DNA of 11,870 nucleotides from the NCBI GenBank assembly GCA_009782695.1, contig WRIO01000011.1, positions 1 to 11,870 of the forward strand, written 5' to 3'. Shown here in pieces: positions 1-11,870 of this stretch. A program made the translations under genes and the position numbers. The notes beneath the pieces were generated by a model. It worked only from the letters and a program-made list of their open reading frames with translations, was not told the origin of the DNA and ran no database searches. The stretch's first letter is position 1, and each line of letters opens with the position of its first letter. This DNA is from Candidatus Cloacimonadota bacterium. Lineage in GTDB: Bacteria; Cloacimonadota; Cloacimonadia; Cloacimonadales; WRIO01.

Positions 1-224
1 TTAGCTTGAACTACCTCGGTGCTCAAAAAGACGACATAGTGAAGATCAGAATATTTGACTTCGCAGGTCGTATAGTTCGCGATCTGGATGCTGGTCAGCT
101 CAGCTGGGACGGCAAGACAGATAAAGGCGTGCGCGCAGCAAGAGGAACTTACTTCGCAAGAGTAACGATTAGCAATAAGGCTAAGATGGTTGAATCGGTA
201 GTGAAAATAGCTATCATTAACTAA
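1..224 (+). CDS. C-terminal end of a secreted/surface protein with a FlgD-Ig/T9SS-like C-terminal domain (5' partial)
   Basis: Only the last ~73 codons are present; the frame is open to the window edge (first full codon at position 3), so the real start lies upstream. The visible part has the layout of the FlgD-Ig-like / type IX secretion type A sorting domain family: a strand with VKIRIFDFAGRIVRDL, then SWDGKTDKG, then GTYFARVTI, and a short final strand VVKIAIIN before TAA. In FCB bacteria such domains sit at the C-terminus of large exported proteins and act either as a beta-sandwich cap or as a T9SS export signal. The catalytic or adhesive body of the protein is outside the window, so its role cannot be told. 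The PorV/PorQ-family gene directly downstream fits an export role. Family assignment is good; T9SS export itself is inference. Confidence 0.75.
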   Translation, partial: SLNYLGAQKDDIVKIRIFDFAGRIVRDLDAGQLSWDGKTDKGVRAARGTYFARVTISNKAKMVESVVKIAIIN

Positions 225-243
225 GAATAAATCATACCTAAAT

Positions 244-267
244 CTCCCCTGCGAAAGCAGGGGGGAG
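244..267 (+). repeat. GC-rich hairpin just upstream of the PorV-like gene
   Basis: CTCCCCTGC (244-252), a GAAA tetraloop (253-256) and GCAGGGGGGAG (257-267) form a strong stem with small imperfections. It fills most of the 63-bp gap between the upstream stop (222-224) and the next ATG (288). No T-run follows, so it is not a canonical intrinsic terminator. It could be a processing or attenuation stem, or a short relative of the CCCCTCC/GGAGGGG module at 1890-1908. The ribosome-binding site GGAGG (279-283) lies just 3' of it. Confidence 0.6.
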
Positions 268-287
268 GTGGGTTGATCGGAGGAAAC

Positions 288-1262
288 ATGACAACAATAA
301 AAAAAATAGTTCTGGCATTAGTAATAATGCTCGGAATCACCGTAATGTTCGCTACTGAAAACAACTTTGCAGATGCGAACTTTGAGCTCGGTTTAGACGC
401 TCGTACCGCAGGTATGGGAGGAGTCGGCGTTGGATTTCTCGATAATGTAGCAGCTACCTTCTTGAACCCTGCCACTCTGGCTGACGTAAAGAGACACGAA
501 TTCAACTTTTCTTACAGAGCAAATATGGAATATGATAGAAGCTACTTCTCTGCTGCCGGCGGCTTCGAGCTACCACTCGGCTATCTGGCTCTCAGCTGGA
601 AATATGCAGGCACAGACAAGATCAGAGGATTCGACCCCGAAGGTAACCCCAGAGGCGATTTCGACAGCAGTGCAAATAACATAAACCTGTCTTATGCTCT
701 GAAAATAAGCAACTTCAATGTCGGTATCACACCAAAACTCTATATGTCAAATATAGACGATGACAAGACTACCGGCTTCGGACTGGACCTCGGTGCTGTA
801 TGGCACATGAACCGCTATTTCAACCTCGGTTTCGTAGCTCGCGAGCTTGCTAGCGATGTAGACGGAGACGGGCTAGAAATGCCTCGTAAACTGATACCTG
901 GTATAGCTGTGTTCCCAGTGCCAGGATTGGTTGTAGCTGCTGACATGGTCGGCACTAACGACTTCAAAGACACTTCTCTAAACCTCGGTGCAGAATACTG
1001 GCTCGGAGTGGGACAAGATGACAATATGGGATCTAGCATCACAGGCATCCGCGTGCGTGAAAACAGCACCTGGAGCGACATCTTTGCCCGCACTCAAGCA
1101 GGTATCCGCGCTGGTCTAAATGACGGTAAATTCGCAGCTGGCTTCGGCTTACGATACAGCATGTTCGAAGTGAACTATGCTTATCAGCTGACTGACAAGA
1201 AAAGCGAAGATACTCTGGATGGACAAGACCACCACCTGATGAGCTTGACGCTCAGGTTCTAA
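288..1262 (+). CDS. PorV/PorQ-family outer-membrane beta-barrel protein
   Basis: 324 residues from ATG 288, chosen because GGAGG at 279-283 sits four bases before it and the protein then opens with a signal peptide (two Lys, hydrophobic run, likely cleavage near residue 22). Just after comes the family's N-terminal signature: ELGLDARTAGMGGVGVGF, then an AATFLNPATLA segment, matching the usual aromatic/Asn-Pro-Ala motif of PorV/PorQ (UPF0164-type) proteins. The rest alternates short amphipathic strands with Gly/Asn/Asp turns and ends in an aromatic residue (LTLRF), as outer-membrane barrels do. In Bacteroidota, PorV shuttles type IX cargo and PorQ belongs to the attachment complex; many FCB genomes carry several paralogs of unknown role, so no finer name is given. 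It follows a protein with a T9SS-like C-terminal domain and is closed by a strong terminator. Confidence 0.85.
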   Translation: MTTIKKIVLALVIMLGITVMFATENNFADANFELGLDARTAGMGGVGVGFLDNVAATFLNPATLADVKRHEFNFSYRANMEYDRSYFSAAGGFELPLGYLALSWKYAGTDKIRGFDPEGNPRGDFDSSANNINLSYALKISNFNVGITPKLYMSNIDDDKTTGFGLDLGAVWHMNRYFNLGFVARELASDVDGDGLEMPRKLIPGIAVFPVPGLVVAADMVGTNDFKDTSLNLGAEYWLGVGQDDNMGSSITGIRVRENSTWSDIFARTQAGIRAGLNDGKFAAGFGLRYSMFEVNYAYQLTDKKSEDTLDGQDHHLMSLTLRF

Positions 1263-1306
1263 AATAAAATATTGGGGGAGGCGAAGCCTCCCCCAGATTT
1301 TATTTT
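1261..1306 (+). terminator. Bidirectional intrinsic terminator after the PorV-like gene
   Basis: TGGGGGAGGC (1273-1282), GAA loop, GCCTCCCCCA (1286-1295) gives a perfect 10-bp GC-rich stem. The flanking AAAATAAAAT (1261-1270) is the exact reverse complement of ATTTTATTTT (1297-1306). This gives a T-rich tail on either strand and lets the stem extend outward. The left arm overlaps the TAA of the gene. Confidence 0.9.
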
Positions 1307-1392
1307 AAATTAGAAATTATAAATTATAAATTATAAATAGCTTGGTGTCCTGCGGACGGACTTAGTCAAATTATAAATTATAAATTATAAAT
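1307..1392 (+). repeat. Two direct AAATTAT heptamer arrays around a 29-bp spacer
   Basis: First array: AAATTAG (1307-1313), three AAATTAT units (1314-1334) and AAAT (1335-1338). Second array: three AAATTAT units (1368-1388) and AAAT (1389-1392). The spacer 1339-1367 carries a mini-hairpin GTCC-TGC-GGAC (1347-1357). Both arrays have the same orientation as the one beginning at 1768, so the small gene at 1417-1776 is flanked by direct copies. The second array ends 10 bp before that gene's ribosome-binding site. Confidence 0.9.
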
Positions 1393-1416
1393 AGAGTGGT
1401 TTTGGAGAAGTATAAG

Positions 1417-1776
1417 ATGTCTACAAAGAACAATGCGATTTTGGAAAAGAGCAAAAAGTTTGCCATCAGAATTATTCGACTATACCAATATCTAAAAGAT
1501 GAGAAACAGGAATATGTTCTTAGTAAACAGCTACTCCGAAGTGGAACTAGTATTGGTGCCAATGTTCGTGAAGCTCATGCTAGTATCAGCCCTGCAGAAT
1601 TTAGACAAAAACTGAATATTTCTCTAAAGGAAGCACAAGAGACAGACTACTGGTTAGAATTGCTGTTTGAAACAGGTTATCTAACTGAAGTAGAGTTTAA
1701 CAGTATATATAAGGATAGTGTCGAGCTGGGTAAAATGCTTACTAAGATAATAAAGACACTCAATAGTAAATTATAA
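1417..1776 (+). CDS. Four-helix-bundle protein (S23 / 23S rRNA intervening-sequence protein family)
   Basis: 119 residues. ATG 1417 is preferred over upstream GTG 1396 because GGAG (1404-1407) lies nine bases before it. The sequence is almost entirely helical and carries the family landmarks: LEKSKKFAIRIIRLYQYL (helix 1), then LSKQLLRSGTSIGANVREA (helix 2 with the conserved R-SGTSIGANV-EA core), FRQKLNISLKEAQETDYWLELL (helix 3, with KEA-ET-YWLELL) and a final helix. This family was first found encoded inside 23S rRNA intervening sequences and also includes the Avd accessory protein of diversity-generating retroelements. No rRNA, reverse transcriptase or variable repeat is visible here, so this is a stand-alone member of unknown function; the pentameric basic fold suggests nucleic-acid binding. 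Its last two residues and TAA come from the heptamer array starting at 1768. Confidence 0.9.
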   Translation: MSTKNNAILEKSKKFAIRIIRLYQYLKDEKQEYVLSKQLLRSGTSIGANVREAHASISPAEFRQKLNISLKEAQETDYWLELLFETGYLTEVEFNSIYKDSVELGKMLTKIIKTLNSKL

Positions 1777-2033
1777 ATTATAAATTATAAATTATAAATG
1801 CGGTGTCATTCCGACAGATGAAGAATATTCTGGATTCTGCCGTTTCGTTCAGAATGACGGCAAAGGGTTGTAGCGGACGGGTATTAATTCCCCTCCAAAT
1901 TGGAGGGGTGGACGCGCCAGCGGACGGGGTGGTTATAATCTATATTGTGCGAAGCACACAGTATTTATAATTTATAATTTGTTTTGCACGAAGTGCGCCT
2001 TATTTATAATTTATAATTTATAATTTATAATTT
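1768..2033 (+). repeat. 266-bp modular repeat element with perfect 32-bp terminal inverted repeats
   Basis: Left end: four AAATTAT units plus AAAT (1768-1799). Right end: ATTT plus four ATAATTT units (2002-2033), the exact reverse complement. The interior holds a module starting TTCTGGATTCT (1828-1881); an inverted-repeat module CCCCTCCA-AAT-TGGAGGGG (1890-1908) continuing to about 1934; mini-hairpins TGTGC-GAA-GCACA (1946-1958) and GCAC-GAA-GTGC (1986-1996); and an extra inner ATAATTT pair (1967-1980). The left end overlaps the stop of the four-helix-bundle gene. The right end stops 23 bp before the next ATG. No ORF in it looks real, so if mobile it would need a protein supplied in trans. 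Confidence 0.9.
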
Positions 2034-2056
2034 TAAAAAAATAACGGAGGGTTAGC

Positions 2057-4042
2057 ATGAAATATATTATTTCATTGTTCATGATTTTAGTGCTTTTTGT
2101 GAGCTTGTTTGCATCTGCTAGAGAGGATCGTAGCTTTCTCGATGCAGAGAATTACTATAAAATAGGTAATTACACACAGGCGATGAACAGCATGAAAAGA
2201 GTGGACCAAGAGTATCATAATCACACAGATTATCTGCTACTCTTAGCTAAATTACAGATAGCGACCGGTGATTATGAAGAAGCTCTGGCGACTTTAAATG
2301 ATTACCGCAGCGAAGGTGGAGAAGGCGTGCCGCTTACAGGCGAACTTTATGCCACCATAGCCGACGCAACAGATTTTGCTATACAAGGCGTGATACTCGA
2401 CCTGCCCGGTAGATTAAACTCTATCCACAGCGAATATCTGCCTTTTGTAAATGCAGAAGGCGACTTTATGGTCTTTGGGTCAGACCGGCGAAGCCCCTAC
2501 AAAGGCGAGAATATATTCTATTCCGCTCTGGTAGACGGTAGCTGGACAGAACCTATGGAGATCAAGGAACTTGCGACAGATAGAAACGAAACAGCTGGCT
2601 CGTTTGACAAAGACGGAAACCTGTATATTGCTGGTCAATACGGAAATAAGAAAAAAGCTTATAACAACAGTATTTATATAGCCTACAACCTTGGGAAAAA
2701 ATTCGGAAGCCCGCAAAAAGTAGACGCATTGTCTAGCAACTTCAATGATATAAACCCGTCTGTATCCAGCGGTAATACTATGGTCTTTGCTAGCACGCGC
2801 GGTGGCGACCACAAGAGCTATGACCTCTATGTGTCTGAGTATAGCTTCGGCACTTGGAGCACACCAGTCTCTCTGGGTAGCACCATAAACACCAGCGGAA
2901 ACGAGATAACTCCTTTCCTAGCTCCCGGCGGACATCTGCTGTTCTTTGCTAGCGATACTCACCCCGGCTTCGGCGGATTTGACCTGTTTGTAAGCAAAAG
3001 AACTGGCGCTAGCTGGACCGAATGGGGCACCCCGATAAATCTGGGACCCATCATAAACAGCTCAAATGATGACAGAGGCTTTTCACTAGCGGAAAACTCT
3101 TTGACAGCGTATTACTCTAGCAATAGATTTGCCTATCTAAATATGGAAAATATACTGGGTATCGACCTGGAAAAGCTCGGCTACAGATTGGTGCACGGCT
3201 ATGTCCATGACGAAACAAACGAAAGAGTCCAAACCACTGTAAACTGGAGCGACGGAAATCATGACTTCTTTACCAAAACTGACGAAAATGGCGAATTTCG
3301 CTTCCTGCTTTCACCTACAAAGAAAGTAACCTACTACATCGATGACGAAAGATACTTCTTTGTAGAAGGCGAAGAGGATATAGTGCAGCGCGATACAGAA
3401 ATCATCATACCCGTCCACCGTAAAAACGTCCTGCGCCTCGCTGGTCGCGTCTATGACCAATACGATGACCCTGTCCACACCACTATAAACTGGACCTACG
3501 TAAACGAAGGCGAGACAGTAAAAAGAGGCAGCAAAACAAACGATGACGGTCACTACATCATGGAAGTACCAAATATACGCTATATCGACTTCGATATCCA
3601 AGAACAAGGCTATGTAGCCCTAAAAGGTCGCTGGAACCTAATAGAAGGCGAATCTTATCAAACCAGAGACTTTGTCCTTACTGTGTATGCAAAAGGGCAA
3701 GCGTATGCCTTCGTGGTCGAATTTGACTATGATAAATCTGACATACGAACAGACACTATGCCAGAAGTGGTGAAAATGTATAATATGCTAAACGAAAACC
3801 CGACTATGAAAGTCGAGATAGCAGGTCACACAGATATCCGCGGGTCAGAAGCCTACAATATGGGTCTGTCACAACGCAGAGCTGATTCTGTGCGAAATGA
3901 ACTAGTTCGCAGAGGCATAAATAGAAACAGAATGCAGACAGGAGCCTATGGCTTTAGCAGACCGCTGGCAGATAACGACACCGAAGAAGGTATGCAAAGA
4001 AACAGAAGAGTCGAAATGATAGTCTTATCTATCGATCAATAA
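2057..4042 (+). CDS. PorE-like periplasmic protein: TPR, PD40 beta-propeller, two regulatory domains, OmpA C-terminus
   Basis: 661 residues; ATG 2057 has CGGAGG (2045-2050) six bases upstream. Order of parts: signal peptide (~1-21, cut near ASA/RED); TPR-like helices (~27-84); PD40/WD40-like propeller blades (~120-360, with repeats such as VFGSDRRSPYKGENIFYS, VFASTRGGDHKSYDLYVS and LFFASDTHPGFGGFDLFVS); two carboxypeptidase-regulatory-like beta domains (~377-450 and ~458-540); and an OmpA-type peptidoglycan-binding domain (~550-661) with VEIAGHTD and LSQRRADSVRNEL. This is the domain order known for PorE of the type IX secretion system, which links the machine to peptidoglycan. Unlike PorE of Porphyromonas, I see no lipobox cysteine, so it should be a soluble periplasmic form. 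Related PD40-OmpA proteins exist outside T9SS, so the specific role is inferred. Confidence 0.85.
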   Translation: MKYIISLFMILVLFVSLFASAREDRSFLDAENYYKIGNYTQAMNSMKRVDQEYHNHTDYLLLLAKLQIATGDYEEALATLNDYRSEGGEGVPLTGELYATIADATDFAIQGVILDLPGRLNSIHSEYLPFVNAEGDFMVFGSDRRSPYKGENIFYSALVDGSWTEPMEIKELATDRNETAGSFDKDGNLYIAGQYGNKKKAYNNSIYIAYNLGKKFGSPQKVDALSSNFNDINPSVSSGNTMVFASTRGGDHKSYDLYVSEYSFGTWSTPVSLGSTINTSGNEITPFLAPGGHLLFFASDTHPGFGGFDLFVSKRTGASWTEWGTPINLGPIINSSNDDRGFSLAENSLTAYYSSNRFAYLNMENILGIDLEKLGYRLVHGYVHDETNERVQTTVNWSDGNHDFFTKTDENGEFRFLLSPTKKVTYYIDDERYFFVEGEEDIVQRDTEIIIPVHRKNVLRLAGRVYDQYDDPVHTTINWTYVNEGETVKRGSKTNDDGHYIMEVPNIRYIDFDIQEQGYVALKGRWNLIEGESYQTRDFVLTVYAKGQAYAFVVEFDYDKSDIRTDTMPEVVKMYNMLNENPTMKVEIAGHTDIRGSEAYNMGLSQRRADSVRNELVRRGINRNRMQTGAYGFSRPLADNDTEEGMQRNRRVEMIVLSIDQ

Positions 4043-4045
4043 ATA

Positions 4046-4109
4046 GTGTCTACACGTTTTTCATAGACACCTCCTAAAGGACGCAGACTACAATCTGCGT
4101 CCTTTTTTT
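4046..4109 (+). terminator. Intrinsic terminator after the PorE-like gene, preceded by a second hairpin
   Basis: Main stem: AAAGGACGCAGA (4076-4087), loop CTACAA, TCTGCGTCCTTT (4094-4105), running into seven T (4103-4109). A second stem just upstream pairs GTGTCTA (4046-4052) with TAGACAC (4064-4070). The T-run is immediately followed by the first heptamer of the next repeat element (4110). Confidence 0.92.
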
Positions 4110-4312
4110 AAATTAGAAATGTGGTGCACTTCGTGCGTTGAGGAGCTTCGCTCGTTGAGGCACGCAAGCGTGCGTTGAGGACAAACTTCGTTTGTCGTTG
4201 AGGACGCTGCGCGTCGTTTAAGGTTGAGATAAACACATCTTTCACATTCTGCGAAGCAGACTTAAAACAAATTATAAATTATAAATAAGGTTGAGATAAA
4301 CACATCTTTCAC
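4110..4312 (+). repeat. Modular repeat element with five linked mini-hairpins
   Basis: Starts AAATTAG-AAAT (4110-4120), then GTGGTGCAC. Five hairpins follow: GCAC-TTC-GTGC (4126-4136), GAGC-TTC-GCTC (4143-4153), GCACGC-AA-GCGTGC (4160-4173), GACAAAC-TTC-GTTTGTC (4180-4196) and GACGC-TGC-GCGTC (4203-4215). Each pair is joined by GTTGAGG whose last G begins the next stem. Then come a 26-bp sequence (4220-4245) repeated exactly at 4287-4312, a hairpin TCTGC-GAA-GCAGA (4248-4260), and a second heptamer array (4269-4286) in the same, not inverted, orientation. No gene is seen here. Confidence 0.88.
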
Positions 4313-4518
4313 CTTAGGCTGTTCCCTACGATATGAAGGGGAATAATAAAAAAAACTTGACACAAATAGGCGCTAAAAATTTTTTGGTATTTGTAAAAAT
4401 AATAAAAATACTATTGCCTATACGAGAGCGAAGGTGTTCGTTTTTGTGAATAATGACGCGGATATTAGCGTATCTTTTAGGTGATAGGAAAATTTGAGGT
4501 CTGCGAAAGGAGTATTTG
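4313..4518 (+). other. Unique AT-rich leader upstream of the HTH-EIIA/purE pair
   Basis: About 206 bp that matches none of the repeat modules. It contains runs of A and T (4348-4385), a TTGACA (4357-4362), and the ribosome-binding site AAAGGAG (4506-4512). A 38-codon reading frame (4333-4449) is present but has no Shine-Dalgarno sequence. The region most likely holds the promoter and 5' leader of the downstream pair. I cannot fold it into a known riboswitch by eye. Confidence 0.5.
4357..4362 (+). promoter_or_regulatory. Possible -35 element (TTGACA) for the HTH-EIIA/purE operon
   Basis: An exact TTGACA lies about 155 bp before the start codon in unique sequence. At 15-19 bp spacing the sequence is A/T-rich (around 4378-4386) but holds no good TATAAT, so this is only a weak promoter call. 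Confidence 0.25.
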
Positions 4519-5223
4519 ATGTTAGAAGCGAATAGTATGATGACTATATCGGAGGTTGCCCAGTATTTGAAGGTAACAGATAAAGTCGTAAACGAGCTGG
4601 TAAATTCGGGGGTATTAAAGAAGGTAGGGGTTGGGAAAAATGCCCGCATAGAAAAGGCGGGTGTAGATTCTTGGCTTGCATCTTTGGATCATAAAGAGGC
4701 AGAGGATTTGGCTATGCGCCGAGTGGTCTGTCATTTTCAAGATTATTTCAAGGTGGAGAATATCGTCCTCGATTTTACAGCTGACAACAAATATGAGGCG
4801 ATAGCCACCATCAGTAAAAAAGCTCGCGATCTAAAGATAGTAAAAGACCACCGCTGGCTCTATGAAGTAGTGATAGCCCGCGAAGATTTAGTTTCGACCG
4901 CTGTGGGGAACGGCGTTGCGCTGCTCCACCCACGGCACATGCACCCCACCAAAATCAAAGTTCCGACCATACTTTTTGGGCGTAGCACCGAGCCGATAGA
5001 ATTTGACGCGATAGACGACCAACCGGTTAACCTGTTCTTTATGCTGCTCCTGCACAACGACAAGCAACATTTATTTTCCCTGTCTTTCTTGTCCAAATTT
5101 TTGATGTCAGCCGAGAATAAAAATTTACTGACGCACGCGAAAACTCCCGAAGCTGTTTATAAAGCCTTGAGTGGATATCACACCATGCTGCGTAATGCTG
5201 ATGAAGCAGAGGATAAAAAATGA
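4519..5223 (+). CDS. Transcription-regulator-like protein: excisionase/MerR-type HTH fused to a PTS EIIA (fructose/Ntr-type) domain
   Basis: 234 residues. ATG 4519 is six bases after AAAGGAG (4506-4512), better placed than TTG 4516. Residues ~7-55 are an excisionase/MerR-like winged HTH ([29 protein letters not shown] ending in a VDSWLAS helix; motif spans given only in part). Residues ~68-222 match the PTS EIIA type-2 domain: [23 protein letters not shown], with His137 in the place of the phosphorylated histidine, followed by the typical VFFMLLL-like strand and a [12 protein letters not shown] helix. EIIA(Ntr)/PtsN proteins sense phosphate flow through the Ntr-PTS. Fusion to an HTH suggests phosphorylation-tuned DNA binding. 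No EI, HPr or sugar permease is in the window. The last four bases overlap purE (ATGA), so the two are co-translated. Confidence 0.85.
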
Positions 5224-5711
5224 GTGAGACAGTGGTCAGTATCGTGATGGGCTCGGATTCCGATCTGCCTATCATGCGTGAAACAGCCTCTATTTTAGAG
5301 GAATTTGAGATAAAATATGAGATGGATATAGTGTCTGCTCATCGCACTCCCGACAAGGCAATAGATTTTGCCAAAAATGCCCATAAAAGAGGGATAAAAG
5401 TGATCATAGCCGGGGCTGGTGGCGCTGCTCATCTGCCGGGCGTAATAGCAGCTATGACACCTCTGCCTGTAATAGGTGTCCCCATAAAGTCTGCAAATTC
5501 ACTCGACGGCTGGGATTCTGTGCTATCTATCTTGCAGATGCCAGCAGGGATACCTGTGGCAACAGTAGCCTTAAACGGGGCGAAAAATGCGGGGATTTTA
5601 GCTGCTCAAATACTGTCGGCAGGCTGCAAAGACCTGCAAGAAAAGCTTTTAGCATACAAAGAGAGTATGAGGGTGAAAGTGGAGGGGAAGAGATTAGAAA
5701 TTAGAAATTAG
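5220..5711 (+). CDS. purE: N5-carboxyaminoimidazole ribonucleotide mutase, class I (PurE)
   Basis: 163 residues; ATG 5220 overlaps the upstream TGA, with AGAGG (5208-5212) seven bases before. PurE moves the carboxyl group of N5-CAIR to C4, giving CAIR in de novo purine synthesis. Visible signatures: GSDSD (11-15, phosphate binding), SAHRTP (39-44, with the catalytic His41), [12 protein letters not shown] (64-75), and [23 protein letters not shown] (from 94; longest part quoted as family motif in two pieces: [15 protein letters not shown] and AGIPVATV). This pattern fits the bacterial class I enzyme, which normally works with PurK; purK is not in the window. The last residues RLEIRN and the TAG stop are encoded by the heptamer array of the element at 5691-5950, so the native C-terminus has been replaced or extended. 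All catalytic regions are intact. Confidence 0.97.
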
Positions 5712-5950
5712 AAATGTAGTGTGCTAGTCCAACTTCGTTGGAGTTACTAATTACAAGTGACAACACAACTTCGTTGTGAGTTACTAATAGTGGTGTGCTA
5801 CGCACGATGCGAAGGATGTGTTTATCCCAACTCTCAACGACGTGAAGCATCCTCAACTGCACGAAGTGCTTTCAACGACAAGCTTGCTTGTCCTCAACGA
5901 GCGAAGCTCCTCAACTGCACGAAGTGCACCTTATTTCTAATTTCTAATTT
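5691..5950 (+). repeat. 260-bp modular repeat element between purE and the uridylyltransferase gene
   Basis: Left array AGATTAG, AAATTAG, AAATTAG, AAAT (5691-5715). Right array ATTT plus two CTAATTT (5933-5950), inverted relative to the left. The interior has one 74-bp unit (5716-5789), then GTGGTGTGC (5790-5798) and hairpins in the opposite sense to those at 4126-4215: GCAC-GAA-GTGC (5859-5869), GACAAGC-TT-GCTTGTC (5877-5892), GAGC-GAA-GCTC (5899-5909) and GCAC-GAA-GTGC (5917-5927). Linkers read CTCAAC, the reverse of GTTGAG. It fills the whole gap: its left end holds the purE stop and its right end stops four bases before the next ribosome-binding site. Confidence 0.88.
5716..5789 (+). repeat. 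74-bp unit, copy 1 (+ orientation)
   Basis: Begins GTAGTGTGC (other copies GTGGTGTGC) and carries two mini-hairpins, CCAAC-TTC-GTTGG and CACAAC-TTC-GTTGTG, separated by a conserved linker starting GTTACTAATTAC. Nearly identical copies are at 7302-7375, 7376-7449 and, inverted, at 10947-11020. Confidence 0.9.
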
Positions 5951-5965
5951 ATTTAAGGTTGTTTT

Positions 5966-7297
5966 ATGAGTGAGATAAAAAAGTTTGTCGATATTATGCA
6001 GGCAGAAGGTATTCACAGCAGCAGTATCAAGGTGTTCGAATACTACTATCAGCAGCTGGAAAAGGGTGAGAAGGGGAAGCTATCGAAGGCGCAGATTAGC
6101 ACGCCGAATAGCAATCAATTGATCTATCATGATAGTCTGACAGGTGGGGATACTGTAAACCTGCGGAAGCTGGCTATCATCAAGCTAAACGGTGGGCTGG
6201 GCACCTCGATGGGGCTTTCCAAGGCGAAATCGCTTTTGACAGTGAAAGACGGCTACACCTTTTTGGATATCATAGCCCAGCAGACGCTCTTGCTACGGGA
6301 AACTTGCCAGATAGACTTGCCATTGCTCTTTATGAATAGCTTTGTCACCTCGTCTGATACATTGGAATTTCTGCAGAAATATCAAAGCTTGGAGCTGGCA
6401 GGGCTACCCCTTGAATTTATCCAAAACAGGTTTTTAAAGGTGCGCAAAGACAGCCTGTCGCCTCTGCAAAATGAGGACGAGACACAGAACTGGAATCCGC
6501 CCGGTCATGGAGATATTTACGGAGTGCTGCAAAGCACAGGCATATTACAAAGCCTTTTGGACAGGGGCATCGAGTATGTCTTTATCTCGAATAGTGACAA
6601 TTTGGGCGCCACTGTGGACACCGGAATACTAAACAAAATGGTGGCAGAAGGTATCGAGTTTGTGATGGAAGTGTGTGATAGGACAGAAAACGATAAAAAG
6701 GGCGGTCATTTGGCAGCTATAGGCGATCGCTTGACCCTGCGGGAAGTGGCACAATGCCCTGAAAATGAGGTGGAGGAGTTCCAAGATATCGAGGTGTATA
6801 AATATTTTAACACCAATAACCTTTGGGTAAACCTAAAATCTCTGCAAAAATTGCTCGAAACCAACAAAGATGTGCTTCCGTTGCCATTGATATTAAACGA
6901 AAAAAAGGTAGCAGAAGTGCCTGTTTATCAGCTGGAAACTGCTATGGGTTCAGCTATATCACTTTTTGAAAATTCAAAGGCTTGCGTGGTTCCACGTAGC
7001 CGATTTTTACCCGTAAAAAAGAACCAAGATCTGCTGCTATTATGGTCTGATGTGTATTCTTTGGATGAACATTTTGAGCTAAAGAAAAATGAAGGCGCGA
7101 TAGAGACTATACTAGACCTCGACCCGAATTTTTATAGCAATATCGATCAGCTGAAAACCGCCTGCCAAAAGGGTATTCCTTCATTAGCAGCCTGCAAATC
7201 GCTGACTATCAGGGGGAATGTAAGCTTTGGGGAAAATGTGGTTTTTCGGGGAGATGTGAAGATAGAGACGGAAGAGAAATTAGAAATTAGAAATTAG
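5966..7297 (+). CDS. UTP--glucose-1-phosphate uridylyltransferase, eukaryotic-type UDPGP family
   Basis: 443 residues; ATG 5966 with AAGG (5955-5958) seven bases upstream. It makes UDP-glucose from UTP and glucose-1-phosphate in the cytoplasm, for envelope polysaccharide, glycogen or galactose metabolism. Signatures: LNGGLGTSMGLSKAKS (74-89, nucleotide-binding loop), FMNSFVTS (122-129), WNPPGHGDIYGVL (176-188), SNSDNLGA (208-215), GGHLA (246-250), FNTNNLW (281-287) and ETAMGSAI (324-331). A short left-handed beta-helix begins near 404 (PSLAACKSLTIRGNVSFG). This is the eukaryote-like family, not GalU. In the eukaryotic enzymes the beta-helix runs some 25 residues further; here the protein stops at KIETEEKLEIRN, with the final LEIRN and TAG coming from a heptamer array. 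The tail may therefore be truncated, though the catalytic domain is complete. Repeat elements flank it on both sides. Confidence 0.92.
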   Translation: MSEIKKFVDIMQAEGIHSSSIKVFEYYYQQLEKGEKGKLSKAQISTPNSNQLIYHDSLTGGDTVNLRKLAIIKLNGGLGTSMGLSKAKSLLTVKDGYTFLDIIAQQTLLLRETCQIDLPLLFMNSFVTSSDTLEFLQKYQSLELAGLPLEFIQNRFLKVRKDSLSPLQNEDETQNWNPPGHGDIYGVLQSTGILQSLLDRGIEYVFISNSDNLGATVDTGILNKMVAEGIEFVMEVCDRTENDKKGGHLAAIGDRLTLREVAQCPENEVEEFQDIEVYKYFNTNNLWVNLKSLQKLLETNKDVLPLPLILNEKKVAEVPVYQLETAMGSAISLFENSKACVVPRSRFLPVKKNQDLLLLWSDVYSLDEHFELKKNEGAIETILDLDPNFYSNIDQLKTACQKGIPSLAACKSLTIRGNVSFGENVVFRGDVKIETEEKLEIRN

Positions 7298-7567
7298 AAA
7301 TGTGGTGTGCTAGTCCAACTTCGTTGGAGTTACTAATTACAAGTGACAACACAACTTCGTTGTGAGTTACTAATAGTGGTGTGCATGTCCAACTTCGTTG
7401 GAGTTACTAGTTACAAGTGACAACACAACTTCGTTGTGAGTTACTAATAGTGGTGTGCTCCGCGCGAATTGTTCTCAACTCTCAACGAGCGTAGCTCCTC
7501 AACGCACGCTTGCGTGCCTCAACTGCACGAAGTGCTTTCCACATTTCTAAATTCTAATTTCTAATTT
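7277..7567 (+). repeat. 291-bp modular repeat element between the uridylyltransferase and pgeF genes
   Basis: Left array: three AAATTAG plus AAAT (7277-7301). Right array: ATTT, one damaged unit CTAAATT, then two CTAATTT (7543-7567), inverted. Interior: two tandem 74-bp units (7302-7449), GTGGTGTGC (7450-7458), then hairpins GAGC-GTA-GCTC (7487-7497), GCACGC-TT-GCGTGC (7504-7517) and GCAC-GAA-GTGC (7525-7535) with CTCAAC linkers. The left end contains the uridylyltransferase stop codon (7295-7297). No gene is seen in this 330-bp gap. Confidence 0.9.
7302..7449 (+). repeat. Tandem duplication of the 74-bp unit
   Basis: Copies at 7302-7375 and 7376-7449 differ at only three positions (GCTAGTCC versus GCATGTCC, and CTAATTAC versus CTAGTTAC). 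The second is followed by the first nine bases of a third copy (7450-7458). This is a recent head-to-tail duplication compared with the single copy in the element at 5691-5950. Confidence 0.92.
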
Positions 7568-7570
7568 CCC

Positions 7571-7599
7571 TTGACATTTTTTATTGTTTTAGAAAAATA
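7571..7599 (+). promoter_or_regulatory. Possible promoter for pgeF-fapA
   Basis: TTGACA (7571-7576) starts three bases after the repeat element ends. A 17-bp T-rich spacer leads to AAAATA (7594-7599), a weak -10. The start codon is about 30 bp further. The -35 match is exact; the -10 is poor. Confidence 0.35.
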
Positions 7600-7627
7600 G
7601 CACCTTCGTAAAAAAGTAGGTAATATA

Positions 7628-8308
7628 GTGATAAAACAGTTTTTTGGGGATGCTCGACAAGACTACCAATCCTGCTGTAGCAGAGGTTTTGTGTGGGTAG
7701 ACAGCAGCACAAAGATTTTGACCGACGATATAGTATTTATGGAGCAGATCCATTCGGCAGAGGTAGGTGTGTTGACAGAAAAAGCTTTATCCGATATGAA
7801 AAAAGAAGGTAATCTGACTTTTTGGGGAGTGGATGCTCTGCTCACGGATATAAAGGGGGTATATTTATGCGTGCGGACTGCCGACTGCTATCCAGTTTTG
7901 CTTTTTGATAAAGTGAGAGAAGTGGTAGCTGTGGTGCATTCTGGTCGCGAGGGGACGCGGCAAAAAATAGTTCAGAAAGTGATAATGACTATGAAAGAAG
8001 TTTATAAGAGCGACCCGGCTGACATCAAGATGTCTGTGGGTGTGGGTATTTGCAGTGAACATTACGAGGTGTCACCCGAGGTGGCAGAGGACTTTGGGAA
8101 TGTGTTTGGTGAGTATACTTTTAGCCGAAAATTGGATCTAGCAGGTGCTATCCGAAGCACAGCGTTGCTATCTGGCATCAAAGAGGCGAATATCGAGCAA
8201 AAAAGTGGCTGCACCTATGAGGATGAGCAGCACTATTCCTACCGACGAGACCGCACGAATAGGCGACAAATAAGCATAACAGGGATGGTTTATGGCAGAG
8301 ATATATGA
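7628..8308 (+). CDS. pgeF: Peptidoglycan editing factor / polyphenol oxidase (laccase-domain, YfiH/PgeF family)
   Basis: 226 residues from GTG 7628, with AGTAGG (7615-7620) seven bases upstream; the next in-frame ATG (7739) would remove the N-terminal strands. The family (DUF152, multicopper-oxidase-like by name, related to human LACC1) has a zinc-type site built from His, Cys and His. These are visible as QIHS (His42), TADC (Cys87) and VHSG (His104). Other landmarks: DALLTDIKG, GVGICSEHYEVSPEV and the C-terminal SGCTYEDEQHYSYRRDRTNR. Members have been shown to act on purine nucleosides, and PgeF removes wrongly incorporated L-Ser from peptidoglycan precursors in E. coli; which applies here cannot be told from sequence. 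The family's usual HAGWRG reads HSGREG, a small departure next to the metal ligand. The last 17 bases overlap the DUF342 gene. Confidence 0.9.
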   Translation: MIKQFFGDARQDYQSCCSRGFVWVDSSTKILTDDIVFMEQIHSAEVGVLTEKALSDMKKEGNLTFWGVDALLTDIKGVYLCVRTADCYPVLLFDKVREVVAVVHSGREGTRQKIVQKVIMTMKEVYKSDPADIKMSVGVGICSEHYEVSPEVAEDFGNVFGEYTFSRKLDLAGAIRSTALLSGIKEANIEQKSGCTYEDEQHYSYRRDRTNRRQISITGMVYGRDI

Positions 8309-9608
8309 GAGCGAATTTGGCAATTTCGTGATAGAAATAGCCGAGGACAATTTTAGTGCATACTTGACTATCAAGCCGAGTAAAGAATTTATCAATGAAA
8401 AAGAACTGCTGAACTTGATAGAGACGACCAATATCAGCTATGGCTTCGACGAGACCCGCCAAATGGTGGAAGAGAAGCAGATAGCAAAGGTTTACAACAG
8501 CCCCTTCCCTTTTGCGATGGGTGTGAAGCCAAAAGACCCAGAAATAGAATTTTCCCCCCTTTTCGACACTGAAAAATGTTATCGCCCCGACAGTGGAAAC
8601 CATCTAAAAAAACTGGGGGACTTTAAGAGGATAAAGAAAGGTGAGCCACTTGCCCATTTATTTATCACCAAACCGAGCAAGGCGGGAATAAATATCTACG
8701 GTCAGACGGTGGAGCCAGAACTCTTGGAATCGAGCATCATAGAGAACTATTTAGGCGAAAATGTGTCTTACTCGCAAGAACGCGGGCAGATCATAGCCGA
8801 AAAGTCAGGCTATCCCTATATGGATGCCTTGTCCCTCGTCCATGTAAAGAGCGAATTTACTCTGGAAAAAAACCTCGACTTAACCTTCGAAGACCTCGAA
8901 TTCTTTGGGTCATTGACCGTTAACGGCGATATCATAGACAAAGTAAAAATCAAAGTGGAAGGCGACCTAACGGTTCTGGGTGATATAAACGACGCGGAAG
9001 TAGAAGTAAAAGGCAATATCAATGTAAAAGGCGATATCATAGATTGCAAAAATCCGGGAGTATTTGCCACAGGAAATATATGCTTTACATCGGCTGAAAA
9101 CTCGAAAATAGTGGCAGGACAGAAGATAGAATTTTCCCGAAATATGCAGTTTTGCCGGTTAGTTGCCGAAGGTGGGCTCTACGGTCACGAGGAAAATAGT
9201 AGCATAGTGGGCGGTATCTACCATAGCGGCGAACATATCGAGGTGGCTGTGGTTGGGAATACAGGTGGCATCGGCACAGAAGTGGAAATATCTATCACAC
9301 CCTTTACCAAAGAATCTATGATGAACGTGACAAAGCAGCTAAATAACATGCACGAAATGGAGCTGACGCACGCTCCCGAATACCAAAACCTGCAAGACGA
9401 ACTGTCAAACCTGGAAGCAAAATACGAGGAAGAGGTGAATAGCATGCTAAAAAACCTCGATAACCTGCCAAAGCACATACTTGCCTATAAAAAGGTCTTT
9501 CCCGGCACATATATCCGGATACTGAAAAAGTCGATACATATCACAGAAGAGCTGAGTAAAGTGAGCTTTTCTATCGTGGATAGCGAGCTGACGAGTGAGG
9601 GGTATTAA
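8292..9608 (+). CDS. FapA family protein (DUF342)
   Basis: 438 residues; ATG 8292 lies inside the end of pgeF, with GGGA (8282-8285) six bases upstream, so translation is probably coupled. The N-terminal ~180 residues match the DUF342 N-domain (KKLGDFKRIKKGEPLAHL, then KAGINIYGQTV, then SGYPYMD). Residues ~185-335 form a run of beta-helix-like repeats (VNGDIIDKVKIKVEGDLTVLG, quoted to the limit as GDIID-KVKIKV-EGDLTVLG; VKGNINVKGDI; GLYGHEENSSIVGG), the polymer-forming type fold. Residues ~340-400 are a Glu/Lys-rich coiled coil, and a beta cap ends the protein. In Vibrio, FapA positions the polar flagellum; the family is also common in bacteria without flagella, where its role is unknown. No flagellar gene is visible here. 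The stop TAA (9606-9608) is four bases before a heptamer array. Confidence 0.88.
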   Translation: MAEIYESEFGNFVIEIAEDNFSAYLTIKPSKEFINEKELLNLIETTNISYGFDETRQMVEEKQIAKVYNSPFPFAMGVKPKDPEIEFSPLFDTEKCYRPDSGNHLKKLGDFKRIKKGEPLAHLFITKPSKAGINIYGQTVEPELLESSIIENYLGENVSYSQERGQIIAEKSGYPYMDALSLVHVKSEFTLEKNLDLTFEDLEFFGSLTVNGDIIDKVKIKVEGDLTVLGDINDAEVEVKGNINVKGDIIDCKNPGVFATGNICFTSAENSKIVAGQKIEFSRNMQFCRLVAEGGLYGHEENSSIVGGIYHSGEHIEVAVVGNTGGIGTEVEISITPFTKESMMNVTKQLNNMHEMELTHAPEYQNLQDELSNLEAKYEEEVNSMLKNLDNLPKHILAYKKVFPGTYIRILKKSIHITEELSKVSFSIVDSELTSEGY

Positions 9609-9611
9609 ATT

Positions 9612-9775
9612 AAATTAGAAATTAGAAATTTGAAATAGTGGTGTGCTCCGCACGGAGATAAATTTTTAACCACCCCGTCCGCTGTCGCGTCCACCCCTCC
9701 AAATTGGATGGGAATTTCTGGATTCTTCACTTCGTTCAGAATGACGGCAAGGGGTTGTATCGGAGGGGTGAAAAC
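9612..9775 (+). repeat. Modular repeat element, part A (downstream of the FapA-family gene)
   Basis: Array AAATTAG, AAATTAG, AAATTTG, AAAT (9612-9636), then GTGGTGTGC (9638-9646). Next is an inverted copy of the CCCCTCC/GGTGGTT module (9668-9715, compare 1885-1934). After it comes a direct copy of the TTCTGGATTCT module (9716-9768, compare 1828-1881). Relative to the element at 1768, the two modules are in swapped order and one is flipped. No right-hand inverted array is present. No gene is seen in 9609-9979. Confidence 0.85.
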
Positions 9776-9943
9776 AAATTAGAAATTAGAAATGTGGTGC
9801 ACTTCGTGCAGTTGAGGCACGCAAGCGTGCGTTGAGGAGCTTCGCTCGTTAGAAAGTTGAAAACACATCCTTCTCACATTATGCGAAGCAGACATATCAT
9901 CCACATCGTTTTCCCCCAAGCCTTCCGTGTAGAAATTAGAAAT
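9776..9943 (+). repeat. Modular repeat element, part B (upstream of the lipoprotein gene)
   Basis: Array AAATTAG, AAATTAG, AAAT (9776-9793), GTGGTGCAC, then hairpins GCAC-TTC-GTGC (9799-9809), GCACGC-AA-GCGTGC (9817-9830) and GAGC-TTC-GCTC (9837-9847) with GTTGAGG linkers. It continues with a diverged copy of the tail at 4220-4260 and a single AAATTAG-AAAT (9933-9943). The same three hairpins occur at 4126-4173 in a different order. Confidence 0.85.
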
Positions 9944-9979
9944 ATTTTAGCGGACATTTTTTTTTGTAGAAATAATAGT

Positions 9980-10867
9980 ATGAACAGAATAGTAAACCTT
10001 ATTTTAGTTATGTTGATAGTGATCAGTGCTTTTGTGGCATGTGATGCAGATATTCGCAAAGCGCTTAACTATAAAGGGAAAAGGGTGTTTTTCGAGGAGA
10101 AAAATATATCTTTTATACCACCGAGGGGTTGGGCTATAAAAAAGGACATCGCACCTGCTGGACTTTTGGTAGCTCCTGTGAAGAAGGGGTTTGCTGCGAA
10201 TATCGACTTTTGGGAAGATGAGATAGGTGTCACTAGTGGCGAAAACAGGTTTACTACCGACACGAAGCTTGACGTGAGCTGGGATATATTTGAGGAGTCT
10301 GACCAGAACGAGGTAAAAGAGATAAGGTATGAAATCCAAAAAGCAGACGGATATTATCTCATAGCTAGCTGCAAAGTTCTGGGCAGTGAAGCGAAAAAAT
10401 ACCTGCCCAAACTGGAAAAATGCATAAAGTCTATCGAAGCAATCAGGGTGTATTCTAGATACAGGCACTTCTCCTTCGCGTCTCCCAAAGGCTGGAGAAA
10501 TGCAGAGGTCAATATGATAGTTTCCCCAGAGCCCGTTCTGTATAAGCCAAGTATAGGATATTACGCTTGGGAGTGCGAATCTTTTGCAGATTTTGTAGGG
10601 GATAAAGCGCAAGAATATTCGGATCTGCCTCATATCGTTGAGGTAGAGCAGAGTTCTTTCGTCACAGCAAGTGGTGAGAGGGGCGAAAAGCTGATGATGG
10701 TCGTCAAATACCCGGCGATTGACTTGAAAAAGGTTGTTTATTATATTGCAGGTGAAGAAAGCGTAGCAGAGATAGTTTGCGAGACGACCCAGATTGACTT
10801 TGAGAGGTATATTTCTCTGTTTGAAGCATGTGCAGAGAGCTTTAGATGGGAGATTCGATTAAATTAG
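9980..10867 (+). CDS. Predicted lipoprotein with two PsbP/DcrB-like domains
   Basis: 295 residues from ATG 9980. I choose this start because it opens a clear lipoprotein signal (MNRIVNLILVML to SAFVAC, Cys21). A longer frame back to 9857 would be made of repeat sequence. No Shine-Dalgarno is visible (AT-rich leader). After Cys21 come two similar halves. Residues ~43-155 start ISFIPPRGW and end LEKCIKSIE. Residues ~164-290 start FSFASPKGW and end FEACAESFRW. Each begins with a strand plus Pro-x-Gly-Trp and ends with a helix plus Ser-Ile/Phe, as in PsbP/DcrB/DUF1795-like domains. Function is not known to me; such proteins are small periplasmic or membrane-anchored factors. Asp22 follows the lipid cysteine, which in E. 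coli keeps lipoproteins in the inner membrane, a rule that may not hold here. The final LN and TAG stop are repeat-derived. Confidence 0.75.
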   Translation: MNRIVNLILVMLIVISAFVACDADIRKALNYKGKRVFFEEKNISFIPPRGWAIKKDIAPAGLLVAPVKKGFAANIDFWEDEIGVTSGENRFTTDTKLDVSWDIFEESDQNEVKEIRYEIQKADGYYLIASCKVLGSEAKKYLPKLEKCIKSIEAIRVYSRYRHFSFASPKGWRNAEVNMIVSPEPVLYKPSIGYYAWECESFADFVGDKAQEYSDLPHIVEVEQSSFVTASGERGEKLMMVVKYPAIDLKKVVYYIAGEESVAEIVCETTQIDFERYISLFEACAESFRWEIRLN

Positions 10868-11052
10868 AAATTAGAAATTAGAAATGTGGAATGCACTTGG
10901 TGCAGTTGAGGCACGCAAGCGTCCTCGTCCGTGCGGTGCACACCACTATTAGTAACTCACAACGAAGTTGTGTTGTCACTTGTAATTAGTAACTCCAACG
11001 AAGTTGGACTAGCACACCACATTTCTAATTTCTAATTTATAATTTATAATTT
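10861..11052 (+). repeat. 192-bp modular repeat element between the lipoprotein gene and ispE
   Basis: Left array: three AAATTAG plus AAAT (10861-10885). Right array: ATTT, two CTAATTT, two ATAATTT (11021-11052), inverted and mixing both heptamer types. The interior holds a GCAC-TTG-GTGC hairpin, a partial GCACGC module, GCACACCAC (10938-10946) and an inverted 74-bp unit (10947-11020). The left end holds the lipoprotein stop codon. The right end stops four bases before the ispE ribosome-binding site. Confidence 0.9.
10947..11020 (-). repeat. 74-bp unit, inverted copy
   Basis: Reverse complement of the unit at 5716-5789 and 7302-7375, with both mini-hairpins conserved (here read as CACAAC-GAA-GTTGTG and CCAAC-GAA-GTTGG). 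It is joined directly to the right-hand heptamer array, as the + copies are joined to left-hand arrays. Confidence 0.9.
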
Positions 11053-11056
11053 AAAA

Positions 11057-11062
11057 GAGAGG
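11057..11062 (+). promoter_or_regulatory. Ribosome-binding site that sets the ispE start at ATT
   Basis: GAGAGG lies five bases before ATT 11068. The reading frame is open back to a TAA at 11047-11049. Between that stop and the conserved N-terminal motif there is no ATG, GTG or TTG in frame, so ATT is the only start-like codon with a good spacing. Confidence 0.6.
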
Positions 11063-11067
11063 TATAT

Positions 11068-11870
11068 ATTTTTACACTAAAATCTTATGGCAAGATAAAT
11101 CTCTATTTAGAGGTGTTAGGCAGGATGGACAGCGGGTTTCATAGCTTATGGACAGTTTTTTCGGAGATAAATTTATATGATATATTAAAATTCTCTTTGA
11201 CAAAAAACGGGGATTTAAAAATATTGTCCTCGCTTGAAAGTTTAAATAATAAAGATAATTTGATCTATCAAGTAGCGATCTATATACAAGCAAAATATAG
11301 TGTGCAATATGGTGTAAAAATAGAACTAAACAAAAATATACCAGTAGCAGCCGGATTGGGAGGAGGCAGCAGTAATGCAGCCACGACCATAAAGGGTTTG
11401 TCACGCTTGTGGAACTTGGATTTATCTATAGGAGAGATGCAGGATATAGCTAGCCGTTTTGGTAGCGATATCAATTTTTTCCTTGAAGGCTACACAGCTA
11501 TAGGCACGAATAGGGGAGAGGTGATACAGCCTCTGGACAGCGATTTATTTTTCGATAATATTTTGCTGGTGAACCCTGGGTATCCTATCGCAAGCCGAGA
11601 AGCCTACCAGTCGATAGATCCCTTACATTTTGACAGGATGTGTGACCTCACACCGGGGGAGCAGCTACTGGCGAAACAAGATGCCGAATTTTGTTTCAAT
11701 CGCTTGGAGGCAGGTATATTGGCAAAATATCCAGACCTGCAACAAACCAAAGAATTATTACATAAAATAGGGGCAAAAAAGACGCTACTTTCGGGTAGTG
11801 GACCCACGATGATAGCCTTTTTTGACGACCCTAAAATATGCCAAAAAGCACGGGAGTATACAGAACAACG
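11068..11870 (+). CDS. ispE: 4-diphosphocytidyl-2-C-methyl-D-erythritol kinase (IspE), 3' partial
   Basis: 267 full codons are present and the frame runs off the window end; E. coli IspE has about 283, so little is missing. IspE uses ATP to phosphorylate CDP-methylerythritol in the MEP isoprenoid pathway (cytoplasm). GHMP-kinase features: an N-terminal strand with SYGKINLYLEV (Lys9 matches the conserved lysine), DSGFHSL near 21-27 (the usual DGYH/L), the ATP-binding glycine-rich loop PVAAGLGGGSSNAA (92-105), GSDINFF (132-138, with the catalytic-type Asp134) and the C-terminal LLSGSGPTMIAFF (240-252). The reading frame is intact. The odd feature is the start: ATT (11068), with GAGAGG five bases upstream, is the only plausible initiator. 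The next in-frame ATG (at residue 20) would delete the KIN motif. The start is 15 bp from the end of a repeat element. Confidence 0.92.
   Translation, partial: MFTLKSYGKINLYLEVLGRMDSGFHSLWTVFSEINLYDILKFSLTKNGDLKILSSLESLNNKDNLIYQVAIYIQAKYSVQYGVKIELNKNIPVAAGLGGGSSNAATTIKGLSRLWNLDLSIGEMQDIASRFGSDINFFLEGYTAIGTNRGEVIQPLDSDLFFDNILLVNPGYPIASREAYQSIDPLHFDRMCDLTPGEQLLAKQDAEFCFNRLEAGILAKYPDLQQTKELLHKIGAKKTLLSGSGPTMIAFFDDPKICQKAREYTEQ

Follow-up and report, generated by a model that had tools for sequence, protein, structure and literature searches.

Introduction

The STRR heptanucleotide repeats of cyanobacteria reportedly form heptamer arrays in Nostoc and Anabaena and are said to go back to Mazel and others in 1990; to our knowledge, no protein partner is known for them. 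We also know of no catalytic activity for the PF05635 protein family. Its members resemble Avd of diversity-generating retroelements (PMC10053308), and the IVP genes that belong to it are found in the intervening sequences (IVSs) of 23S rRNA and, in CPR bacteria, in insertions within rRNA (PMC11270868). In the Coxiella 23S IVS, two to three tandem GACAGAT heptamers stand ahead of the IVP open reading frame, and that report cites an earlier suggestion of a mobile element (Warrier 2016, PMC4990558). Beyond this one case (PMC4990558), a link between PF05635 and heptamers was not found in the portions of the open-access literature covered here.

Direct repeats of the heptamer TAACTGA occur in Beggiatoaceae, Cyanobacteria and Bacteroidetes (MacGregor 2015, PMC4679880). 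They carry stops in three frames, 13 sets overlap upstream stop codons, and the cited sections of that paper argue from these stops for tolerance at protein ends (PMC4679880); 'helix bundle', '23S' and 'S23' have 0 occurrences in its main text. The cited parts of the remaining literature describe other small repeats near gene ends. QMITE1 and QMITE2 of Coxiella are small inverted-repeat elements with insertions at the 3' ends of functional genes, where they alter the C-termini (PMC5896051). Hairpin repeats of the REP/BIME type lie closely behind stop codons in E. coli (PMC12306157); they are defined as 20-40 nt palindromes with a GTAG or CGTC tag and a REP-associated transposase (PMC3733652), and a connection between REPs and tyrosine transposases has been described (PMC2817692). 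In Porphyromonas, the MITE BrickBuilt contains a 23-nt tandem repeat (PMC4596501).

Here, tandem heptamers in a Cloacimonadota genome are analyzed. With a probability of about 70%, we regard them as the borders of an intervening-sequence-like mobile element, a dispersed hairpin unit that spreads into the gaps between genes and whose full copies carry a PF05635 gene.

Results

Heptamer arrays edge hairpin elements and contain four stop codons

The window is the whole stretch of 11,870 nt that was analyzed (Candidatus Cloacimonadota bacterium, GCA_009782695.1, contig WRIO01000011.1, positions 1 to 11,870). Tandem arrays of AAATTAG and AAATTAT (AAATTAK) are distributed among the following features.

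1307..1392, + strand: two AAATTAK arrays (1307-1338 and 1368-1392) with a GTCC-TGC-GGAC hairpin between them, on the left side of the PF05635 gene; by eye, the region follows a terminator-like hairpin with its T-run
1417..1776, + strand: PF05635 (23S_rRNA_IVP, four-helix bundle) gene (E 8.8e-31; PDB 2rld_A, E 6.7e-36); ATG at 1417 with GGAG upstream, a longer GTG open reading frame from 1396, and a TAA stop inside an AAATTAT array
1767..2033, no strand assigned: array (1767-1799, +), hairpin modules and inverted arrays (1963-1980 and 2002-2033, -)
4110..4289, + strand: element behind an OmpA-domain gene, with a short array, GTTGAGG-spaced hairpins and an array at 4269-4286; it starts directly 3' of a terminator-like T-run (by eye)
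5220..5711, + strand: purE (AIRC, PF00731); the array encodes the LEIRN end and the stop
5691..5950, no strand assigned: element with array 5691-5715 (+), hairpins and inverted array 5933-5950 (-); fold z -6.25
5966..7297, + strand: UTP--glucose-1-phosphate uridylyltransferase (UGPase, PF01704); LEIRN tail array-encoded
7275..7568, no strand assigned: element with array 7275-7301 (+), a 74-nt duplicated hairpin block, hairpins and inverted array 7552-7568; fold z -8.08
9612..9946, + strand: element behind the FapA gene, with arrays 9612-9630 and 9776-9793, a short one near 9933, and hairpin modules
9980..10867, + strand: gene without a Pfam match (a lipoprotein in the earlier note), ending RLN; the final N and the TAG are array-encoded
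10861..11053, no strand assigned: element with array 10861-10885 (+), hairpins and inverted array 11021-11053 (-); fold z -7.48; the right edge adjoins AAAAGAGAGG, followed by an ispE-like reading frame (named by eye)

The arrays are the outer edges of these elements and often form inverted pairs around the hairpin modules. None of the solo elements beside purE, beside UGPase and at 10861-11053 contains a PF05635 gene; as the z values in the list show, the RNA of these three folds far better than shuffled sequence does. The PF05635 gene of the window is placed between AAATTAT arrays, a flanking that is missing from the earlier note, and outer arms at 1299-1339 and 2001-2041, which are 93% complementary, enclose it. 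The element at 5691..5950 occupies the purE-UGPase gap to 15 nt short of the next ATG. The native TAA of the FapA gene lies 3 nt before the array of element 9612..9946. No Rfam match at the gathering score was found in the window. The alternation of genes and elements made integron cassettes (gene-attC arrays with an IntI integrase) a candidate; the elements sit after unrelated housekeeping genes. By eye, two elements (see 1262-1310 and 4042-4112) start right behind a terminator-like T-run, not at a stop codon. On the 5' side, elements end beside a TTGACA box (7568-7576) or the ribosome-site-like AAAAGAGAGG (11053-11063), and therefore little native spacer remains (by eye).

Four stop codons of the window are contained in AAATTAK arrays: TAA at 1774-1776 and TAG at 5709-5711, 7295-7297 and 10865-10867. 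The earlier note had assigned these array-derived stops to the four-helix-bundle gene (the PF05635 gene), purE, the uridylyltransferase and the lipoprotein (the gene ending at 10867), and its coordinates were borne out. It was also right that PurE and the uridylyltransferase share the C-terminus LEIRN, which is array-encoded, and that repeats of either heptamer give stops in all six frames. The further claim was that an element with such ends can land in any frame or orientation. The part about orientation is misleading. Both element ends read AAATTAK inwards, so arrays that overlap the end of a gene are on that gene's strand in nearly every case.

The shared C-terminus is absent from relatives

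C-termini were compared with those of homologues, and the LEIRN tail is missing from the relatives examined. It ends 0/27 UGPase homologues and 0/27 PurE-family homologues, 6 of the latter being distant (29-37% identical). Tails of the 27 UGPase homologues are varied and mostly longer, with an array at the stop in 0/27; an array at the stop of the relatives' PurE genes was found in 0/5 inspected downstream (of 27). The closest PurE (74% identical) ends NNLNKQI at the place of RLEIRN in the window. Five array-ended proteins align with their family models to near the model end (AIRC 146/148, UDPGP 413/413, GlnS 522/524, YgiQ 556/558 and Rpe 207/211). The NCBIfam scan took in 10 of the 23 array-ended genes; HflK matched only to position 222/261, and one protein had no match. 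The shared tail is encoded by the array.

Arrays overlap stop codons beyond chance

The source genome (G000) comprises 309 contigs and 1.56 Mb and is 64% complete. Statistics were taken from 80 contigs (the window and 79 others) with 703,530 bases, 45% of the genome bases. Genes were called with a simple hexamer model built for the analysis, and two or more exact units were counted as an array. Two-unit AAATTAK matches number 204 in the source genome and 0 for the reversed pattern. Such matches occur in 31/58 genomes, with 69 in G001 (same family), 23 in G033 and nine or fewer in the others. The tandem heptamers are mostly intergenic; just 3/87 arrays in the first 60 contigs had no assigned intergenic region. 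Intergenic-recurrent sequence accounts for 32,540 of the 81,997 intergenic bases in these contigs and is found in 161/568 regions, part of which may be other than the heptamer-ended element.

A stop codon is overlapped by 23 of the 82 arrays in the 80 contigs. The circular-shift null gave a mean of 1.5 and a maximum of 8 in 2,000, and random placement of the arrays over intergenic DNA ± 25 nt gave a mean of 7.4 and a maximum of 18 in 500. With a slightly different array definition, the stop of 23/568 complete genes lies within an array or overlaps one; gene and array share the strand in 22 of these cases and are on opposite strands in 1. LEIRN ends 5/568 complete proteins. The earlier note would have been overturned by arrays that overlap stops no more often than expected, or by orthologs without arrays that have the same C-terminal residues. 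Stops overlap arrays beyond chance and the relatives' tails differ, and therefore the observation survived on both counts. An AAATTAT array also lies at the end of an SNF2-type helicase resembling DISARM DrmD (under that model's cut-off; L055, 2353-5310).

In the first 60 contigs, array edges facing a gene 3' end (n = 51) fall at -25 to -1 from the stop (21), at 0-4 nt (16), at 5-40 nt (2) or farther (12), and all 20 edges facing a 5' end are at least 15 nt away. The 8 edges facing a 3' end in 20 held-out contigs were divided 5, 1, 1 and 1 among the same classes. For a uniform-insertion null, elements were placed uniformly into the reconstructed gaps of 44 regions. This null accounts for the overlaps with coding ends (12-24 expected depending on the setting, 19 seen) and leaves an excess of edges 0-4 nt behind a native stop (2.1-4.5 expected, 14 seen). 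Where a gap of at least 60 nt remained (23 regions), 4 such edges were seen compared to 0.7-0.9 expected (P 0.004-0.012).

Part of the 0-4 nt excess may be a DNA preference for T(A/G)A. Insertion targeted to T(A/G)A-like DNA, with stop codons hit directly, would be an addition to the mobile-element explanation and not its replacement, and we consider it doubtful. The native-stop cases do cluster 1-4 nt ahead of the array, in line with the 16 edges at 0-4 nt against 2 at 5-40 nt. T(A/G)A is also found 1-4 nt outside 14/37 non-stop edges that have no upstream module, compared to 21% in array-free intergenic DNA (p 0.015). However, the signal at non-stop edges is weak, the same test repeated 12-32 nt farther out averaging 10.0/37, and short native intergenic gaps could equally force the spacing. 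The 0-4 nt peak is not seen in G028, where the 28 arrays facing a 3' end include 7 overlaps, 0 at 0-4 nt and 7 at 5-40 nt. It is merely hinted at in G001, where 5/10 edges lie in -25 to +4 and two more at 5 and 12.

Period-7 arrays recur at PF05635 genes of the phylum

A PF05635 match is present in 30/39 relative genomes and in 96/117 across the phylum. Fifty phylum loci were fetched, of which 42 were placed (27 in a first set and 15 in a replicate) and 8 were not. At 20/27 loci of the first set and 12/15 of the replicate (32/42 in total), the PF05635 gene has a period-7 or period-8 array no more than 300 nt away; the other 10/42 have neither. Taken alone, period 7 was found at 17 and 7 loci of the two sets and period 8 at 5 and 5. 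Periods 4, 5, 9 and 11 gave none, and periods 6, 10 and 12 gave 1, 1 and 2, all in the first set. Whole UGPase and PurE loci served as controls and had period 7 in 0/54, period 8 in 0/54 and period 9 in 1/54. The density of period-7 arrays at the 42 phylum loci is 1.90 per kb near the PF05635 gene versus 0.19 per kb far from it. Among the two-sided pairs, of which 15 have period 7 and 6 have period 8, 19/21 matched better inverted and 2 better direct, and 18/21 agreed within 2 mismatches compared to 45/240 cross-locus pairs. Association with the PF05635 gene, rather than with stops, is what recurs elsewhere.

The array unit differs among genomes (TTAGGTG, CGACTCA, ATTATCA, TTTTACT and others). 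Five genomes that belong to one family have TTAGGTG-type units on the flanks of the PF05635 gene. Two-unit TTAGGTG matches number 69 in G028 (reversed control 1), 36 in G051 and 9, 6 and 2 in the others, and the arrays of G028 are set within array-hairpin-array mosaics. Arrays of 8 nt instead of 7 nt were seen at PF05635 loci L234, L237, L247, L272, L273 and L275-L277.

The source genome has 3 PF05635 genes, and only the one in the window has AAATTAK arrays. The other two lie in a hairpin array and in 23S rRNA, and no period-7 array was detected at either. The 23S rRNA gene of this genome (L093, contig C7) holds an intervening sequence with a PF05635 gene. At L092, perfect-hairpin arrays (about 1318-1460 and 1870-1945) flank the PF05635 gene; by eye, the stems differ and a GTTGAGG-like spacer is common to them.

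Plasmids provide occupied and unoccupied sites

A PF05635 relative is present in 27 plasmid records, and 18 of them, rows H1-11, 13, 16, 20 and 22-25, were fetched so as to leave out near-duplicates. Period-7 arrays stand beside the PF05635 gene at 16/18 of these loci, the 16 coming from Cyanobacteriota, Bacteroidota, Spirochaetota and Chloroflexota. The detector reported no period-7 array at the Bacillota locus and at one Nostoc locus, where degenerate copies are visible by eye. The density over the 18 loci is 3.15 per kb near the gene versus 0.23 per kb far from it, and the 15 two-sided pairs are 11 inverted, 2 direct and 2 ties.

The PF05635 gene stands between plasmid genes that lie side by side elsewhere, or do so in related systems, namely cas2/cas1 (Anabaena cylindrica and Nostoc TCL26-01) and hsdS/hsdR (Monoglobus). 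The cas2-cas1 site measures 586 nt in Nostoc TCL26-01 or 843 nt in Anabaena cylindrica versus 61-64 nt in Nostoc UHCC 0870. Nostoc C052 has both forms of a site on two plasmids, one of 422 nt with arrays at its edges and one of 188 nt. A third site, within a DNA cytosine methyltransferase gene, is 466 nt versus 328 nt. The 422, 586 and 466 nt replacements have arrays at their edges or no more than about 6 nt from them. The comparisons are few and were made between divergent plasmids with flank identities of 76-100%, and they look like replacement without target duplication. Because the plasmids are divergent, gain versus loss is clear only at the interrupted methyltransferase. Inspection by eye revealed no target-site duplication at the two-ended elements, nor at the three plasmid sites, where replacement is seen. 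The unoccupied methyltransferase site holds a single CAATTCG, the array heptamer of the occupied site (L345 and L356; one of three sites, by eye), and arrays might be seeded from the target in this way.

The last residues of the plasmid Cas1 are partly array-encoded (EVKSQKLKGKREES...). This tail is the phenomenon of the earlier note in named organisms. Annotators should be aware that an element can be the source of shared tails like LEIRN and of an unusual Cas1 tail.

Discussion

The arrays could instead be independent repeats, either MITE- or REP-like and moved by an ordinary transposase or produced by slippage, with PF05635 genes as passengers that prefer them. We consider this unlikely. 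It would agree with the scarcity of PF05635 genes near arrays (3 genes in the genome, 82 arrays in 80 contigs), with composite elements that combine many modules, with the Y1_Tnp matches in G001, G002 and G004, and with G001, in which the units at the PF05635 gene (GAGGCAA/ATGCCTA) differ from the solo AAATTAT arrays. It is opposed by the recurrence of period 7 at PF05635 genes of the phylum and of plasmids from four named phyla, with unrelated and mostly inverted units, by the lack of target duplication described above, and by a source genome that has no Y1_Tnp in its 64%-complete assembly. A REP system with its own Y1 transposase was rejected on the latter finding, and a reverse transcriptase partner was rejected on the lack of RVT_1 in the same 64%-complete genome. 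Reverse transcriptase is present in 5/7 genomes searched, a count of presence in the genome and not of linkage to arrays.

The earlier note read the arrays as six-frame stop signals; that they are selected as such, as compact signals at gene ends, is very improbable despite the 23/82 arrays over stops, the 0-4 nt excess and the stops that both units of the source genome carry in all frames. AT-rich 7-mers give the property: permutations of AAATTAG have three-frame forward stops in 105/105 and six-frame stops in 28/105, and 19% of random heptamers at 40% GC have six-frame stops. Many arrays follow an intact native stop and add little there. The nearest downstream heptamer at PF05635 loci has no forward stop in any frame at 12/21 phylum loci and 10/15 plasmid loci, and stop provision as a conserved function was set aside because of these 22/36 stop-less heptamers. 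What remains of the argument is that the element is tolerated at 3' edges, which is plausible because the first in-frame stop lies at most about 23 nt inside the array; the stop-signal purpose attached to it is not supported.

The mobile-element reading accommodates the shared tails as follows. A full-size copy would consist of the PF05635 four-helix-bundle gene between inverted tandem arrays with a lineage-specific unit of 7 nt, sometimes 8 nt, and the PF05635 protein would drive its movement. Copies that lack the gene, built of an array, hairpins and an inverted array, have probably arisen by reduction and been moved in trans. A copy would replace a short stretch of host DNA, with no target duplication; the direction of the replacements, like the biochemical route, is inferred. 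Most copies found begin on a stop codon or immediately behind it and stop short of the promoter or ribosome site of the next gene. Where the edge lies within the final codons of a gene, reading runs on into the array as far as its first in-frame stop and produces N, IRN or KLEIRN tails. The shared protein tails look like a side effect of where element edges land.

PF05635 genes of the source phylum and of plasmids from four named phyla sit in mostly inverted 7-nt arrays. Gene-less arrays are dispersed in some genomes that hold array-flanked PF05635 genes, and arrays rewrite protein C-termini. A broader proposal, to which we give slightly less than even odds, is a widespread element class whose defining trait is the repeat period at the ends, where a unit of 7 or 8 nt and arbitrary sequence forms inverted tandem arrays. 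Its PF05635 protein, an Avd relative, would be the mobility or maintenance factor, and insertion would proceed by replacement of host DNA. This class would then take in the intervening sequences of rRNA, the STRR heptamers of cyanobacteria and the arrays at gene ends in the source genome, as forms or as debris of it.

Comparison with known systems

The window elements have MITE-type features in that they are short, dispersed and bounded by terminal inverted repeats. With regard to REP/BIME, palindromes are present and the 64%-complete genome has no Y1_Tnp. REP/BIME repeats share the position of hairpins behind stops and differ in that no tandem heptamer arrays are described for them in the cited sections (PMC12306157); REPs are tied to tyrosine transposases (PMC2817692) and not to PF05635. 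QMITEs resemble these elements in their small inverted repeats, 3'-end insertion and changed C-termini, but the full-size QMITE2 has 7-9 bp direct repeats, and heptamer arrays are not described in the parts of the report cited (PMC5896051).

The TAACTGA repeats share the heptamer arrays, the three-frame stops and the overlap with gene stops. They differ in having one sequence only and in lying mostly ahead of start codons, and the cited sections describe no element structure (PMC4679880). The likeness to STRR repeats is the heptamer array, which here bounds PF05635 genes on cyanobacterial plasmids; the identity of these arrays with STRR is putative. The 23S rRNA IVS (S23/IVP, PF05635) shares the protein family and the terminal inverted repeats that form a stem, and it was earlier suggested to be mobile, as is proposed for the window element. 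Excision from RNA by RNase III is a further mark of an IVS. In contrast to the IVS, the PF05635 unit of the window sits between protein genes and not inside an rRNA gene, and units of this type are located in the gaps between protein genes or at gene ends, have arrays on both sides and are accompanied by gene-less copies.
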